Shown: positions 1-61,077 of the stretch, piece by piece
How the letters are laid out: every line of letters begins with the position of its first letter
How positions within the stretch are numbered: position 1 is the first letter of the stretch
Assembly (NCBI RefSeq): GCF_000739065.1
Contig: NZ_CP009149.1
Location: forward strand, 372,001 to 436,000
From: Methanocaldococcus bathoardescens
GTDB lineage: Archaea > AGJL01 > Methanococci > Methanococcales > Methanocaldococcaceae
Direction: 5' to 3'
Length of the DNA stretch: 64,000 bases
Translations under genes and position numbers: made by a program
Notes under the pieces: generated by a model
The model's database searches: none
Told to the model about the DNA's origin: nothing
Seen by the model: only the letters and a program-made list of their open reading frames with translations

Positions 1-635
1 CAGTTTTAATTATAGATGAATTGCAGAAGTTAAAAAATATCTACTTTAACGGAGATGGAAAAGAAGGTAAATCACTATTAAATGAACTATTTAACTTATT
101 TGTGCATTTAACTAAAGTAAGGCATCTATGCCATGTTATCTGCTTAACATCAGATACTTTATTTATTGAAGAGATTTACCGTAACTCAACCTTAAAAAAT
201 ACTTCCGAATATTATCTAATTGATTGGTTAAGAAAAGGAACTATAAGGAATATTTTAAAAGAAGAAGGTTTTAGTGAAGAAGAGATTAATTATGCTTTGA
301 ATTATCTATCTTTACCTTATGAAATCTCCCAGTTGATAAATAATAAAAAACTTGGCTTATCTGTTGAAGAAACTATAAAACAATGGATTAATGTTGAATC
401 AGATGGTTTAAAATATCTAATTGACACTTCCGATTTAAATGAAGAAGAGATTTATAAAGTCCTTTCTAAATTTAGGAATGAAATAAAAATTGACTATAAA
501 AAAGACGTTAAAAAAGAAGAGATGAAGTATATAAAATTTTTAATTGAGAATGAGATTTTGTTCTATGATGTTATAAATGGAATTATTAAGCCGACTTCGA
601 TAATTGAGTGGCATGCTATAAGAGAAATCATTTAG
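1..635 (+). CDS. Archaeal ATPase (Arch_ATPase type), 5' end outside window
   Basis: The reading frame is already open at base 3 and starts with a Walker B-like stretch (VLIIDELQKL) that precedes the first available start codon. The gene therefore begins before the window and the P-loop is not visible. The remaining 210 residues resemble the C-terminal part of the archaeal AAA ATPases (Arch_ATPase) that are multicopy in Methanocaldococcus, including a conserved-looking FSEEEINYALNYL segment and a winged-helix-like end. Role unknown; members of this family are STAND-like NTPases. The last 17 codons are present again, diverged, at 705-758 after two hairpins, so the current C-terminus may not be the original one. 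Confidence 0.7.
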   Translation, partial: VLIIDELQKLKNIYFNGDGKEGKSLLNELFNLFVHLTKVRHLCHVICLTSDTLFIEEIYRNSTLKNTSEYYLIDWLRKGTIRNILKEEGFSEEEINYALNYLSLPYEISQLINNKKLGLSVEETIKQWINVESDGLKYLIDTSDLNEEEIYKVLSKFRNEIKIDYKKDVKKEEMKYIKFLIENEILFYDVINGIIKPTSIIEWHAIREII

Positions 636-638
636 ATT

Positions 639-704
639 TACACCTCCGAGCGTTAGCGAGGAGGTGTTAGGGGATATAGCAATAGGGGGTGTCCCCCTAT
701 GCTT
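639..704 (+). mobile_element. Twin-hairpin element, locus 1
   Basis: Two strong GC-rich hairpins lie in a GC-poor genome. Hairpin B has arms ACACCTCC (640-647) and GGAGGTGT (660-667). Hairpin A has arms ATAGGGGG (682-689) and CCCCCTAT (693-700) with a TGT loop, extended by AGC/GCT around a bulged A. Related B and A hairpins occur in the same order and orientation at the tRNA-Val gene (minus strand, 42009-41936) and beside the CRISPR array (minus strand, 60376-60292). The element sits exactly between two copies of the ATPase gene tail. No protein is encoded. It is probably a small non-autonomous insertion; the mechanism is unknown. Confidence 0.7.
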
Positions 705-758
705 ATAAAGCCAACTTCGATAATTGAATGGTGTGCCATTAAAAAAGTTTTAAAATGA
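705..758 (+). pseudogene. Second, diverged copy of the upstream ATPase gene tail
   Basis: The fragment reads IKPTSIIEWCAIKKVLK and stop. The live gene ends IKPTSIIEWHAIREII and stop (585-635). Several nucleotide differences are at third codon positions (for example CCG/CCA, GAG/GAA, GCT/GCC). This suggests both tails once evolved as coding sequence in different gene copies rather than by recent duplication. The fragment follows hairpin A directly and has no start of its own. Confidence 0.7.
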
Positions 759-13641: not shown

Positions 13642-14997
13642 ATGATGCCGAAAAATATTAATATAACTGGGTATATATTACTTACCGTTTTCTTACTATT
13701 GATGCCTGTGTATGCAGAAGGTGATTACAACTATAGGTTGGGTGATGTCAACAAAGATGGCTCCATTGACATTGCGGATGTGGTTTATCTCTTCAAACAT
13801 AGAGACCTCGATATAGAAGATGGCGATTTAAACGCAGATAACAGCATAGATATTGCTGATGTCGTTTATCTCTTTGTTAATTATCAAAAAATGAGAGAAC
13901 CTATCCACTACGCCCAAAATATAAAGATAACATATTATGATGAATACGGAAACGAAGTAAATCCATACAATGGTGAAAAATACGCTTACAAAATAGTTGA
14001 AGATGCCACTGGGCAGAGATTTTTATTAAAAAATGAAAGTCAACCAATTCCTTCCTGGGCTGAAGGAAAATACGACAAAGTAATTAATATTCCATTAAAA
14101 AACGTTGTTGTAATGAGTTCTACCCACATAGCTTTAATGGAACCATTAAACGACGATGGTTCAGTGATTGGTTCAGTGAAGGGAATAATGTGGGGAGGAA
14201 AATATACTTGGTACTTTGATGATATCAAGAAAGGCCTCAGTGATGGTTCAATAATCGATGTTGGTTCATCATACAGTCCAAACTATGAGTTAATTACCAA
14301 CATCTCACCACAAGTCGTATTCGTCTACCCAGGATACAGTGGAGATGCAATAATTGAGAAATGCAAGGAATTGAACTTGACATATTTTGCTGATGCGGAA
14401 TACTTAGAAGATTCCTACCTTGCAAGATGTGAATGGGTAAAAATGTTTGCAGCATTTTACAACAAGGAGGACATTGCAAGTAAATACTTCACAAGAATAG
14501 AAAAGAGAGCATTGAATGTCAAAAGATTAACAAGAAACTGTGATAGGCCATTGGTGGCATGGGGTAAAAACTACCCGACATGGGGAGGAACGTGGGTTCC
14601 AAGAGCACAGTCATACGTTGCTAAAGGAATAGTAGATGACTGCAAAGGAGATTACATATTCAAAGACATTCCAGGAACTGGCAGCGAGTGTATAAGTTAT
14701 GAGACCTTTGCAGAAAGGGCAAAGGATGCAGATGTTTGGGTAGTTCCATCAAGCACAGCATGGTTATCAAACTTCAAAGAAGACCATCCAGGATATGAGA
14801 ACTTTAAAGCAGTGCAAAATGGTAGATTGTTCTGTTTAAGTGATGATTACTGGCAACTTGGATTAATGAATACTGATGAGGTATTGATGGATTTAGCAAC
14901 AATATTACATCCAGATGTATTCAAAGGAAGAACTACACACTACTTCTTAAAATATAATCCAAATGACAATACAGCAATGCCATACACAGCAGAATAA
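13642..14997 (+). CDS. Dockerin-bearing periplasmic-type substrate-binding protein (BtuF/FecB-like)
   Basis: Secreted protein of 451 aa with a signal peptide (1-25). A type I dockerin-like domain follows at about 34-81, made of two F-hand calcium loops, GDVNKDGSIDIADVVYLF and GDLNADNSIDIADVVYLF. The rest is a class III substrate-binding fold with two lobes, as in BtuF, FepB and TroA. The dockerin replaces the lipid or membrane anchor usual for archaeal binding proteins, so the protein is presumably held through cohesins of neighbouring proteins. ATG at 13645 is an alternative start given the GGTGGT site. The ligand is inferred to be a corrinoid or iron chelate. Confidence 0.85.
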   Translation: MMPKNINITGYILLTVFLLLMPVYAEGDYNYRLGDVNKDGSIDIADVVYLFKHRDLDIEDGDLNADNSIDIADVVYLFVNYQKMREPIHYAQNIKITYYDEYGNEVNPYNGEKYAYKIVEDATGQRFLLKNESQPIPSWAEGKYDKVINIPLKNVVVMSSTHIALMEPLNDDGSVIGSVKGIMWGGKYTWYFDDIKKGLSDGSIIDVGSSYSPNYELITNISPQVVFVYPGYSGDAIIEKCKELNLTYFADAEYLEDSYLARCEWVKMFAAFYNKEDIASKYFTRIEKRALNVKRLTRNCDRPLVAWGKNYPTWGGTWVPRAQSYVAKGIVDDCKGDYIFKDIPGTGSECISYETFAERAKDADVWVVPSSTAWLSNFKEDHPGYENFKAVQNGRLFCLSDDYWQLGLMNTDEVLMDLATILHPDVFKGRTTHYFLKYNPNDNTAMPYTAE

Positions 14998-28268: not shown

Positions 28269-29930
28269 ATGGAAGAGAAGATTTTGGCTATTGCATTAAG
28301 AAATGCCATCAAATATAATGGAAAAGCTAATCCAAAGGCAGTTTTAGGAATATTTTTGTCAGAAAATCCAGAATATAGGGGTAAAGCAAAGGAAGTAATG
28401 CAAGTTGTAGAAAAAGTTGTCAAAGAAATTGAAAATCTTTCAATAGAAGAAATGAAGAAAAAGTTAGAGGAATTGGGAGAAGATATTGGAAAAAAGGAAA
28501 AGAAAGAGAAAGGTTTAGAGTTACCAAACGTTAAAGATAAAGTAGTTATGAGATTTGCCCCTAATCCTTCAGGGCCTTTACACATAGGACATGCAAGGGC
28601 TGCAGTTTTAAACGATTACTTTGTTAAAAAATATGGTGGAAAATTAATTCTAAGATTAGAGGATACTGACCCAAAGAGAGTTCTGCCAGAAGCTTATGAC
28701 ATGATTAAAGAAGATTTAGAATGGTTGGGAGTTAAAGTTGATGAAACAATTATACAATCAGATAGGATGGAGATTTACTATGAATATGGTAGAAAATTAA
28801 TTGAGATGGGAAAAGCCTATGTTTGTGACTGTAATCCAGAAGAGTTTAGAGAGCTAAGAAATAAAGGAATTCCATGTAAGTGTAGAGACAAAGCTATTGA
28901 GGATAACTTAGAGCTTTGGGAAAAGATGTTAAGTGGAGAGCTTGAAAATGTGGCTGTTAGATTAAAAACAGACATAAAGCACAAAAACCCATCAATTAGG
29001 GACTTTCCAATATTTAGAATTGAAAAAACTCCACATCCAAGAACTGGAGATAAATACTGCGTATATCCTTTAATGAACTTCTCAGTGCCAGTTGATGATT
29101 ATTTATTAGGAATGACCCACGTTTTGAGAGGAAAAGACCACATTGTAAATACTGAGAAGCAGGCATATATTTACAAATATTTTGGCTGGGAAATGCCAGA
29201 ATTCATTCACTATGGAATTTTGAAGATAGAGGATATTGTTTTAAGCACTTCATCCATGTATAAAGGAATTAAAGAGGGGCTTTATAGTGGATGGGACGAT
29301 GTTAGGTTAGGTACTTTGAGAGCTTTAAGAAGAAGAGGGATTAAACCAGAGGCGATATATGAAATAATGAAGAGAATTGGGATTAAACAGGCAGATGTTA
29401 AGTTTTCATGGGAAAATTTATATGCCATAAATAAAGAACTTATTGACAAAGATGCAAGAAGATTTTTCTTTGTTTGGAATCCAAAAAAGCTTGTTATTGA
29501 AGGAGCTGATAAAAAAGTTTTAAAGCTTAGAATGCATCCAGATAGACCAGAGTTTGGTGAAAGAGAGTTGATATTTGATGGAGAGGTTTATGTTGTTGGA
29601 GATGAGTTGGAAGAAAATAAGATGTATAGATTGATGGAGTTATTTAACATAGTTGTTGAGAAGGTTGGTGATATTGCATTAGCTAAATACCACTCAGATG
29701 ACTTTAAAATAGCAAGAAAAAATAAAGCTAAGATTATACATTGGGTTCCTGTAAAAGATAGTGTAAAGGTTAAAGTTTTAATGCCTAATGGAGAGATAAA
29801 GGAAGGCTTTGCTGAAAAGGACTTTAAAATGGTAGAGGTTGATAATATTATTCAGTTTGAGAGATTTGGATTTGTAAGAATAGATAAAAAAGAGGACAAT
29901 GAATTTATATGTTGCTATGCACATAGGTAA
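28269..29930 (+). CDS. gltX: Glutamyl-tRNA synthetase, archaeal type
   Basis: Class I synthetase charging glutamate to tRNA-Glu, 553 aa, with the archaeal/eukaryotic-type C-terminal beta-barrel anticodon-binding region. The HIGH motif is in [15 protein letters not shown]; the KMSKS-equivalent is in [10 protein letters not shown]. Zinc-like cysteines lie in [10 protein letters not shown] and GIPCKCRD. The start follows GGTGAT. The last 22 codons are repeated, diverged, at 30006-30074 behind two hairpins, so the present C-terminus may have come with that element. Confidence 0.96.
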
Positions 29931-29935
29931 GAGAC

Positions 29936-29998
29936 ATTAATTGCCTCTGAAAGAGGCAACTTAATGCATCGTCTTTGATGAAACTTTATTAAAGTTTC
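29936..29998 (+). mobile_element. Twin-hairpin insert downstream of gltX
   Basis: Hairpin 1 (29936-29965) has arms TTGCCTCT/AGAGGCAA around a GAA loop, extended by ATTAA/TTAAT. Hairpin 2 (29980-29998) has arms GAAACTTT/AAAGTTTC around ATT. The two lie exactly between the gltX stop and a second gltX tail, the same layout as at 639-704, but with different stem sequences. Structure rather than sequence is shared with the other loci. Confidence 0.6.
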
Positions 29999-30005
29999 TT
30001 TGGGA

Positions 30006-30074
30006 GAGTTTGGATTTGTAAGAATAGACAAAAAGGATAATAACGAAATGATTTGCTGTTATGCACATAGATAA
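30006..30074 (+). pseudogene. Second, diverged copy of the gltX gene tail
   Basis: Reads [22 protein letters not shown] and stop; 18 of 22 residues match the gltX C-terminus. By my count about 12 of 66 bases differ, many of them synonymous, as between orthologues of two species. It has no start. The rest of the gap to 30189 is AT-rich with nothing I can assign. Confidence 0.75.
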
Positions 30075-30189: not shown

Positions 30190-30603
30190 CTATTTTTTAA
30201 GTTTAAAATTTCTTATAAATTTTGTTAGATTATTGTTTTTCTTTTTCCTGATTTTATTGTTTCTTTTATTTTCTGATTTAAACCTCTTAGCAACATAGAT
30301 TTTATACTCCTTTCTGCCAATATCCCAATATATATGTACTCCAATACCCATGTGGGTATATCTTTTATTTAAAATTGTGGCTCTTTGATTTGGATTATTA
30401 AGCCAATCATTAACAATTCTCCTGGCAACATCTCTATGTCTTTGATTTTTAGTTGCATAGTGGATTGTTCCCCTTTCGTTCATTGCTAATCTTATTGCTT
30501 CGTTTATTAAAATTTTATCTGATTTAAGCTTTTTTAATCCTCTTTTCTTTCTTTCCTGGTTTATATACCTAAATATCCATCCTGCCACCCGCTTAGGATT
30601 CAT
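30190..30603 (-). CDS. CAP/SCP-like domain protein
   Basis: 137 aa. The pattern INQERKKRGLKKLKSDKILINEA, a histidine in GTIHYA, and NDWLNNPNQRATILNKRYTHMGIGVHIY resembles the CAP (cysteine-rich secretory/PR-1) fold of bacterial and archaeal SCP proteins, here with no cysteines and no signal peptide. The C-terminus is a lysine/asparagine-rich basic tail. The start follows GGGAGAG. Function unknown; cytoplasmic location would be unusual for the family. Confidence 0.6.
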   Translation of the reverse strand: MNPKRVAGWIFRYINQERKKRGLKKLKSDKILINEAIRLAMNERGTIHYATKNQRHRDVARRIVNDWLNNPNQRATILNKRYTHMGIGVHIYWDIGRKEYKIYVAKRFKSENKRNNKIRKKKNNNLTKFIRNFKLKK

Positions 30604-41807: not shown

Positions 41808-41912
41808 AAAAACACCTCGACAAATTATTATGGTTATATTGAACTTTGATTAAAAAAGAAAAATCAAAACTCAACAATTTAAAATACTAAAAAATAAATC
41901 GTTAATAATAAA

Positions 41913-41935
41913 TGGTGGGCTCGACGAGATTCAAA
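41913..41935 (-). pseudogene. Decayed second copy of the tRNA-Val 3' end
   Basis: The 23 bp match the CCA, acceptor and T-arm end of the tRNA-Val gene (42010-42032) at 20 of 23 positions; all three changes are G to A on the plus strand. It is followed, towards the tRNA, by hairpins related to those at 639-704. Confidence 0.75.
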
Positions 41936-42009
41936 GCATAGGACTTCGCCCTATTGCTATACCGGGGATGCACTACCTCGCTAATGCTCAGCAGCACCTC
42001 TTTAAGGAT
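41936..42009 (-). mobile_element. Twin-hairpin element, locus 2 (at tRNA-Val)
   Basis: Read on the minus strand after the tRNA: a degenerate hairpin B (GAGCATTAGCGAGG is close to GAGCGTTAGCGAGG at locus 1), then hairpin A (AGC, A, ATAGG ... CCTAT, GCT), then the tRNA-tail copy. Order, orientation and the bulged A match locus 1. Hairpin A spans about 41938-41954. Confidence 0.7.
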
Positions 42010-42085
42010 TGGTGGGCTCGGCGGGATTCGAACCCGCGACCACCGCCTTGTGAGGGCGGCGTCATAGCCACTAGACCACGAGCCC
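42010..42085 (-). tRNA. tRNA-Val (anticodon CAC), CCA encoded
   Basis: Full cloverleaf on the minus strand: acceptor GGGCTCG/CGAGCCC, D arm GTC/GAC, anticodon stem CCGCC/GGCGG with loop CTCACAA (anticodon CAC), T arm GCGGG TTCGAAT CCCGC, discriminator A, then CCA in the DNA (42010-42012). A TATA-like TTTTATAAT about 35-45 bp upstream (near 42120-42130 on the minus strand) is a plausible promoter. Its 3' end is duplicated at 41913-41935. Confidence 0.96.
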
Positions 42086-60217: not shown

Positions 60218-60543
60218 AATACCATCTAAAAAATTGTTAAATTACTATTTTTTAAGGAACTATTTAAAAATATCCGAAATGCTCTAATTCTATAGGGGGC
60301 TTCGCCCTATTGTTATGAACCTTTTAGAAAAAGCTTCACCAAAATCTAACACCTCCTCGCTTACGCTCGGAGGTGTAACTTGGAATTGCTGGGGCATCCC
60401 AATAGGGGCGTAGCCCCTATGGTTGCGGATACCCAGAATAGATTAAGGTAGGGCTTTCAGCCCTACATAATCTCTTTTAATCCATAGAGGGGGCTTTGCC
60501 CCCTCTATTGGTATACTCCCCCATATTTTTACATGTGTATTAT
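60218..60543. repeat. Hairpin cluster between cas2 and the CRISPR array
   Basis: No gene is seen. Five GC-rich hairpins lie within about 220 bp: A-type 60292-60310 (ATAGGG/CCCTAT), B-type 60349-60376 (ACACCTCC/GGAGGTGT), A-type 60402-60420 (ATAGGGGC/GCCCCTAT), then 60448-60466 (GTAGGGCT/AGCCCTAC) and 60484-60508 (ATAGAGGGGGC/GCCCCCTCTAT). The first two, read on the minus strand, repeat the B-then-A order of the elements at 639 and 42009. They sit at the trailer end of the array and could act as transcription stops as well as insertions. Confidence 0.7.
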
Positions 60544-61077
60544 GTTCCCATACCGAAACGGTCTGATTTTAACAAGTGGTATTAAGACACGGTGATTTAG
60601 ACGCTCACATTGATATAACTTTGTTTCCATACCGAAACGGTCTGATTTTAACGATGAGGTTTTGGATGAAAGCTCCACAGAGGAAAGATTTGATGAGGAT
60701 GAGGAAGAAGACGTTTCCATACCGAAACGGTCTGATTTTAACGATGAAATAAACATTATAAACGCAGTTTCAGTTGATGCAAGTTTCCATACCGAAACGG
60801 TCTGATTTTAACAGAATTATACGTCCCTTCTGAATTTACAACATTTGTTTCCATACCGAAACGGTCTGATTTTAACGGTAAGCGTGGATTTTCTCAAGTA
60901 ATTCTGGTGTCATCTTGTTTCCATACCGAAACGGTCTGATTTTAACATGGATAATACCACAATTAAAACAAATACATCAACATGTTTCCATACCGAAACG
61001 GTCTGATTTTAACCTGTTTTGCCATTTAAACTATTATCATTAATATTGTTTCCATACCGAAACGGTCTGATTTTAAC
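60544..61077 (-). CRISPR. CRISPR array, 8 repeats and 7 spacers
   Basis: Repeats are 30 bp at 60544, 60623, 60713, 60783, 60847, 60917, 60984 and 61048 (starts). All are identical except the first, which has T to C at its fourth base. On the minus strand the repeat starts GTTAAAATCAGACCG and ends TATGGAAAC, like the M. jannaschii repeat, so transcription runs leftward with the degenerate repeat at the trailer end. Spacers, left to right, are 49, 60, 40, 34, 40, 37 and 34 bp. The two oldest, trailer-end spacers are unusually long. I saw no spacer match within the window. Confidence 0.98.

Follow-up and report, generated by a model that had tools for sequence, protein, structure and literature searches.

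Results and Discussion

Duplicated 3′ End of gltX

The window (i.e., the whole 64,000 nucleotide stretch of Methanocaldococcus bathoardescens DNA that was analyzed) encodes an intact glutamyl-tRNA synthetase (gltX), the 3′ end of which is repeated downstream of two hairpins (Table 1). The direct repeat spans 66 nt (29865–29930 versus 30009–30074; 82% identity, spacing of 144) and was the strongest pair outside of the CRISPR array in a whole-window scan at offsets of 60–260, which confirms a sequence-only reading of this DNA in which the end of gltX was described as doubled around twin hairpins. That reading had counted 18 identical residues among the last 22 codons; the 18 residues do agree, as does the stop (TAA in both tails), but the protein letters number only 21 and it was the stop that made the 22. 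The copies differ at 12 nucleotides, of which 8 are silent and 4 are replacing. The second tail starts 78 nt past the stop codon and not 75 bp downstream, as had been stated.

The 78 nt spacer (29931–30008) contains no gene and folds as DNA into two hairpins at −16.5 kcal/mol (z = −5.7), with none of 200 shuffled sequences folding equally well. Both hairpins had been called perfect, which holds for hairpin 2 but not for hairpin 1, where one base is bulged. Similarity to the uninterrupted locus of another Methanocaldococcus genome (G006) indicates that tail copy 2 is followed by native downstream sequence. Among 14 Methanocaldococcus genomes, a second match to the gltX tail was detected only in that of the window (G000), and among gltX orthologs an L1 module is located just past the stop codon in G007, with an L1 remnant in G011. 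Between tail copy 2 and ftsJ, G000 also encodes a 137 amino acid CAP-domain (PF00188) protein (30190–30603, minus strand) that is missing from the orthologous G006 locus.

Table 1. Genes, duplicated ends, and hairpin modules identified in the window.
Feature	Position	Strand	Basis
gltX, glutamyl-tRNA synthetase; intact host gene that includes tail copy 1	28269..29930	+	ORF; Pfam PF00749, PF03950, PF20974
Tail copy 1; functional gltX C-terminus	29865..29930	+	Direct repeat D1
Left hairpin module L1 (GAGACATTAAT...TTAATGCATCG); hairpin 29935-29966	29931..29972	+	Fold; dispersed family
Right hairpin module R1 (TTTGATGAAACTTT-ATT-AAAGTTTC); hairpin 29980-29998	29974..29998	+	Pattern match G000:401974-401998; fold
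Tail copy 2; displaced gltX end, abuts end of R1	29999..30074	+	Homology clear from 30009, weaker from 29999
ATPase-like tail; copy 1 583-619, L2+R2 hairpins 620-702, copy 2 703-739	583..739	+	
tRNA-Val; 3′ end 42003-42032, L1+R2 hairpins 41936-42002, displaced T-arm/3′ end 41906-41935	41906..42032	-	

A Dispersed Family of Hairpin Modules

The sequence-only reading had likened the gltX layout to that of an ATPase gene and a tRNA-Val gene, and both of these cases are real. The stems had been taken to be unrelated, yet tRNA-Val shares its left module with gltX and its right module with the ATPase-like tail. The three cases, gltX (L1+R1), the ATPase-like tail (L2+R2), and tRNA-Val (L1+R2), are therefore combinations of shared parts and belong to one modular family. 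Matches to Rfam models in the window were limited to tRNA and CRISPR repeats, with no other known RNA family detected. Elsewhere in the window, a composite of R1-like, L2, and R2-type hairpins (60330–60530) adjoins one end of the CRISPR array (60544–61077), and two direct copies 81 nt apart (13741–13874) resemble dockerin-type repeats.

At a loose limit (E of 10), BLAST searches with the 78 nt gltX spacer matched each genome 7 to 43 times, and the spacer is one copy of a dispersed, modular palindrome family. Its modules are interchangeable and are here named L1 (TAAGAG-R-C...GCATC), L2 (TTTACACCTCC...GGAGGTGTTAG), R1 (TTTGATGAAACTTT...AAAGTTTC), and R2 (GGTATACCAATAGGG...CCCTATGG), designations that were coined in this analysis; the combinations L1+R1, L2+R1, L1+R2, L2+R2, and R1 alone were observed. 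Exact patterns for R1 and R2 yielded 117 and 113 matches, respectively, each in 12 of the 14 Methanocaldococcus genomes, and no match was obtained with either pattern reversed as a control. Of 104 distinct R1 copies, 99 have fully complementary arms, and three different arm pairs occur, which indicates that the hairpin is kept.

Doubled Ends Across Genomes

Doubled ends were sought in 80 stretches of DNA, nearly all around R1, that together contain 86 R1 copies. Doubled ends were scored as local matches between the 350 nt upstream and the 90 nt downstream of R1, with mismatched pairs as the control. At a score of at least 20, a doubled end was identified at 37 of the 86 R1 copies versus 10 of 508 mismatched pairs, leaving 49 copies without one; at a score of at least 25, the numbers were 23 of 86 versus 3 of 508. 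The doubled stretch is usually the 3′ end of a protein-coding gene or of a tRNA, and sometimes a gene start on the other strand. In most doubled ends, copy 1 stops before the left hairpin and copy 2 immediately adjoins the right one, starting 0–4 nt past R1 in most anchored cases. When all collected loci were considered, an anchored repeat of 13–84 nt (mostly 18–58 nt) was present in 62 of 258 hairpin copies, although orthologous loci enter some of these totals more than once.

Several copy pairs, which represent recent loci, are nearly identical, including those at loci L036 (44 of 44 positions), L187 (40 of 42), and L119 (51 of 52), as well as tRNA pairs with 1 difference in 29–33 nt. The displaced tRNA end reads GTTT, versus GTTC in the T-loop of the tRNA, at all 10 T-loop junctions listed (e.g., L062, L072, L078, L112, L123, and L035), a count that includes the same tRNA in different species several times. 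A target preference at the start of copy 2 is weak: among 23 distinct protein-coding targets, A is favored at positions 6 (16 targets; P = 0.002) and 7 (17 targets; P = 0.0004).

Empty and Repeatedly Interrupted Sites

Orthologs of 12 case genes were sought in eight genomes, and uninterrupted orthologous sites were found for most of them. For example, the site in the L125 gene of G013 is empty in G003, G006, G011, G001, and G005, and relatives of G003 have an uninterrupted site for the L067 gene. The L074 gene is interrupted twice, by R1 in G003 and by L1+R2 in G000, and the start points differ. At the empty site of the L047 gene, the gene end abuts the start of the next gene, a junction that copy 2 preserves in G003; in such dense gene order, duplication of the gene end is useful.

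The end of argF is occupied by hairpins in both G003 and G013. In G007, the argF region is spread over two contigs (C15 and C48). On one of them, a hairpin remnant, hsdM, and hsdS lie after argF (L206, 2055–8038), and the other encodes hsdR and a small metallopeptidase and has another copy of the argF tail (L207, 892–4400). If contigs C15 and C48 are adjacent, then a restriction-modification set was probably inserted between doubled argF ends.

Divergence Between Copies

The copies of the gltX tail had been said to differ as sequences from separate species do, and this is borne out by a larger set of pairs. Across 14 copy pairs, 78 of 110 differences are at third codon positions and 76 are silent, with 34 replacing. 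The share of replacing differences (31%) is lower than the 67% expected if copy 2 were free to change and copy 1 accumulated only silent changes (P = 1.6e-14, an optimistic value since some genes were counted in two species). In ten pairs, the ratio of silent to replacing differences (64 to 27) was similar to that obtained when copy 1 was compared to other species (325 to 109 in 52 comparisons; P = 0.36), with alignments below 72% ungapped identity dropped. This coding-type divergence, at a ratio like that between species, indicates that the older pairs represent two coding alleles. A drifting relic of simple duplication as the source of copy 2 is ruled out for the older pairs by the silent and replacing counts.

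Neither copy is consistently the foreign one. Among 18 copy pairs, copy 2 is nearer to another species in 8 and copy 1 is nearer in 8, so that copy 2 is neither always native nor always foreign. At one site, the two alleles occur in opposite order in G003 and G006, and in one gene common to G005 and G006 the copies look homogenized within each genome. The copies at L187, L104, and L105b are each other’s nearest relatives; these pairs, together with the near-identical copies at L036 and L187, indicate that the duplication itself need not be foreign.

A link of the gltX tail to another species had also been envisaged. By identity, each copy is nearer to another genome (86% between copy 1 and G003 and 84% between copy 2 and G011, compared to 82% between the copies), but this does not establish a donor. 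In a tree of gltX 3′ ends, suggested previously as a check, forcing the copies together was worse by 7.2 log units, but with 66 columns the joint tree was not rejected (p-AU = 0.089). A named donor for the gltX tail was sought and not found in this 66-column tree, which has no supported branch around the copies.

Distribution Beyond Methanocaldococcus

The sequence-only reading had taken the layout to indicate a general mechanism, which is consistent with recurrence of the arrangement both in Methanocaldococcus genomes and outside of the genus. R1 is present in 17 of 36 Methanococcales genomes and, among the matches listed, in Thermococcus, several DPANN groups, Methanobrevibacter, ‘Methanovirga’, and some bacteria. 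In archaea outside of the Methanococcales, an anchored doubled end with a score of at least 18 was identified at 5 of 52 R1 copies among the matches listed, versus 0 of 508 controls.

At three loci in Micrarchaeota, R1 lies within predicted introns of tRNA-Ala (L231, 2880–2984), tRNA-Thr (L272, 4165–4279), and a tRNA called Ala (L220, 142–283). These introns are 31, 39, and 47 nt in length, respectively, and the R1 hairpin seems to double as a tRNA intron at these loci. In Thermococcus, R1 occurs on the other strand directly after tRNA 3′ ends (L215, L221, L229, L234, and L262). Tandem units comprising a gene or tRNA end and an R1-like hairpin were observed in Micrarchaeota (L210 and L214) and Methanovirga (L276).

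Candidate Enzymes

Genomes were screened with Pfam models for enzymes that might move the hairpins. Reverse transcriptase (PF00078) was detected in none of the 14 Methanocaldococcus genomes, although three control genomes were positive, and Y1 transposase (PF01797) was detected in two of the 14, which do not include G000. TnpB was rejected as a driver, since it was undetected in the R1-bearing genomes G002, G011, G018, and G019. Cas1 was identified in 16 of 17 Methanococcales genomes with R1 versus 7 of 19 without (36 genomes; Fisher P = 4e-4, uncorrected for phylogeny), and this co-occurrence is only a lead.

Origin of the Doubled Ends

We propose with moderate confidence that the hairpins are non-autonomous palindromic elements that insert with a target duplication of roughly 20–60 nt, and that the doubled ends later mediate exchange between species. 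A protein-less palindromic element made up of interchangeable hairpin modules would enter the end of a gene, and the target stretch, mostly ∼20–60 nt in length, would end up on both sides of the hairpins. Copy 1 would maintain the intact gene, and copy 2, positioned at the right hairpin, would retain what follows, be it native spacer or the translation start of the neighboring gene. At older loci such as gltX, filled sites may since have recombined with DNA of other lineages across the gene end, and co-conversion of the tail together with the element would have given one copy a different allele. Such recombination is proposed as the reason that the two copies at older loci are different alleles; repeated gene conversion between the copies, as in the homogenized gene of G005 and G006, could in part also be behind the coding-type divergence. 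That the hairpins themselves move, the sequence in which these events took place, and an origin of the allele pairs by recombination are inferred.

The proposal is supported by the dispersed family of shuffled modules, the recurrent doubled ends, the uninterrupted orthologous sites, the near-identical recent pairs, the coding-type divergence of older pairs, the alleles in opposite order in G003 and G006, and interruption of the same gene end (L074) at different start points in two species. Arguing against it, no responsible transposase was identified in the screen for reverse transcriptase, Y1, TnpB, and Cas1, copy 2 is not systematically native, many R1 copies are without a doubled end, and the target preference is weak.

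An alternative that we regard as unlikely is homing with co-conversion, whereby a nuclease cuts an empty gene end at what becomes the start of copy 2, repair imports the tail of another species together with the hairpins, and the resident tail remains as copy 2. The usual start of copy 2 at the edge of R1 would be explained by such a cut, as would the L074 gene of G003, the body of which is native as far as the point where copy 1 begins, with copy 2 sharing 90% identity with G006 and G000 and copy 1 sharing 81–83% with all seven others. However, homing predicts that copy 1 is always foreign and copy 2 is always native, which conflicts with the even split among copy pairs. Moreover, copy 1 of L074 is without a close match in any sampled species, the presumed cut site is still present before copy 1 in the filled site, and no nuclease was identified.

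Ectopic insertion by Cas1 (the CRISPR integrase) or a relative, whereby hairpin DNA is joined in the manner of a spacer and doubling of the gene end corresponds to that of a CRISPR repeat, is less probable still. The target is doubled around the insert in the manner of repeat-spacer-repeat, many duplications are near 23–33 nt in length, and the start of copy 2 in protein-coding targets resembles the first 9 bases of the CRISPR repeat in the window (z = 4.0, the best of 81 offsets), yet it ranks second for these targets when 12 repeat bases are used. The frequent presence of Cas1 in genomes with R1, and the lack of detection of reverse transcriptase and Y1 transposase in G000, also favor this route, but the association is uncorrected for phylogeny and G018 has R1 and not Cas1. 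Furthermore, the duplication length is variable rather than fixed, and conserved hairpin families are unlike spacers. We consider it equally doubtful that a class of archaeal hairpin elements makes use of the CRISPR integrase, or of an unknown integrase with similar geometry, and that their doubled ends form a recombination platform passing the tails of essential genes, sometimes with restriction-modification cargo, between species.

Similarly improbable is that the gene tails serve an integrase-borne island as attachment sites, with hairpins being the remains after cargo was lost. The 3′ ends of tRNA genes are typical attachment sites, and the G007 type I restriction-modification set would lie between two argF tail copies if the two contigs are neighbors, at a site that holds hairpins in G003 and G013. 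Nonetheless, this is a single case that spans a gap between contigs and has no R1 beside copy 2, and dozens of different gene tails would each require their own element. No integrase was identified between the repeats, either in the 78 nt gltX spacer or in the seen, incomplete part of the G007 argF insert. Finally, target-primed retroposition of the SINE type, although it would fit the precise end at R1, the variable left side, and the variable length of the target duplication, is very improbable and in Methanocaldococcus largely refuted by the reverse transcriptase screen, such that an unrecognized reverse transcriptase would be needed.

The mechanism is most simply explained by insertion that creates a long target duplication, with recombination occurring later. 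If true, it would imply an integration route tied to no known enzyme, elements that can occupy the ends of essential genes and tRNAs harmlessly, and a route for the exchange of gene ends between species. The movement of small palindromic repeats, a long-standing question, would then be directly testable in a cultivable genus.

Comparison With Known Elements

REP/REPIN, PATE, and MITE elements of prokaryotes are non-coding palindromes that occur in many copies in intergenic regions. The elements described here differ in that 12 of the 14 genomes lack the partner Y1 transposase expected of REP/RAYT or IS200/IS605-type systems, and in that they are flanked by long direct repeats rather than by none or short ones. 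REPs have been counted in two Methanocaldococcus genomes with RepRanger (PMC12306157). With respect to MITEs, the direct repeats (13–84 nt) are neither short nor fixed, as would be a target duplication of 2–14 bp, and the hairpin modules that end the elements differ between left and right and shuffle, whereas terminal inverted repeats of MITEs would be shared with an autonomous transposon.

In mitochondria of Allomyces, the tail of atp6 has reportedly been transferred between species by an endonuclease insert that brings a foreign gene end and displaces the resident end downstream. This case is like those described here in its layout, and unlike them in that it involves an endonuclease gene and a single locus and is mitochondrial.

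Closer in anatomy are the GC clusters of yeast mitochondria (GC42 family), which are short, gene-less palindromic repeats that are sporadic at orthologous sites and move by a mechanism given as unknown; their hairpin units merge and shuffle, and they are exchanged between species by homologous recombination that leaves co-conversion footprints (PMC4478555). The hairpins described here are likewise modular, shuffled, sporadically present at orthologous sites, and probably associated with interspecies exchange. They differ in that GC clusters are mitochondrial and flanked by repeats of 2–3 nt (AG or ACT) rather than by 20–60 nt of gene end, and systematic doubling of gene tails is not among the features described in the available part of that source (PMC4478555). 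The double-hairpin and repetitive hairpin elements of Allomyces and sponge mitochondria are also adjacent, dispersed hairpins that are thought to be mobile, but the available part of the account reports the Allomyces elements without flanking duplications, for which reason an RNA route was suggested (PMC2800124), in contrast to the doubled ends described here.

Searches of one open-access library returned no description of archaeal hairpins flanked by doubled gene ends, which is not proof of absence. None of the comparisons places the elements among MITEs, REPs, or retroposons: their anatomy resembles that of the mitochondrial elements, from which the long doubled gene ends set them apart, and such ends, with hairpins but no genes between them, depart from the hallmarks of the mobile element classes considered. 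The occurrence of these hairpins between doubled gene ends at dozens of sites in related genomes suggests a poorly known class of very small mobile DNA by which gene ends pass from one species to another.
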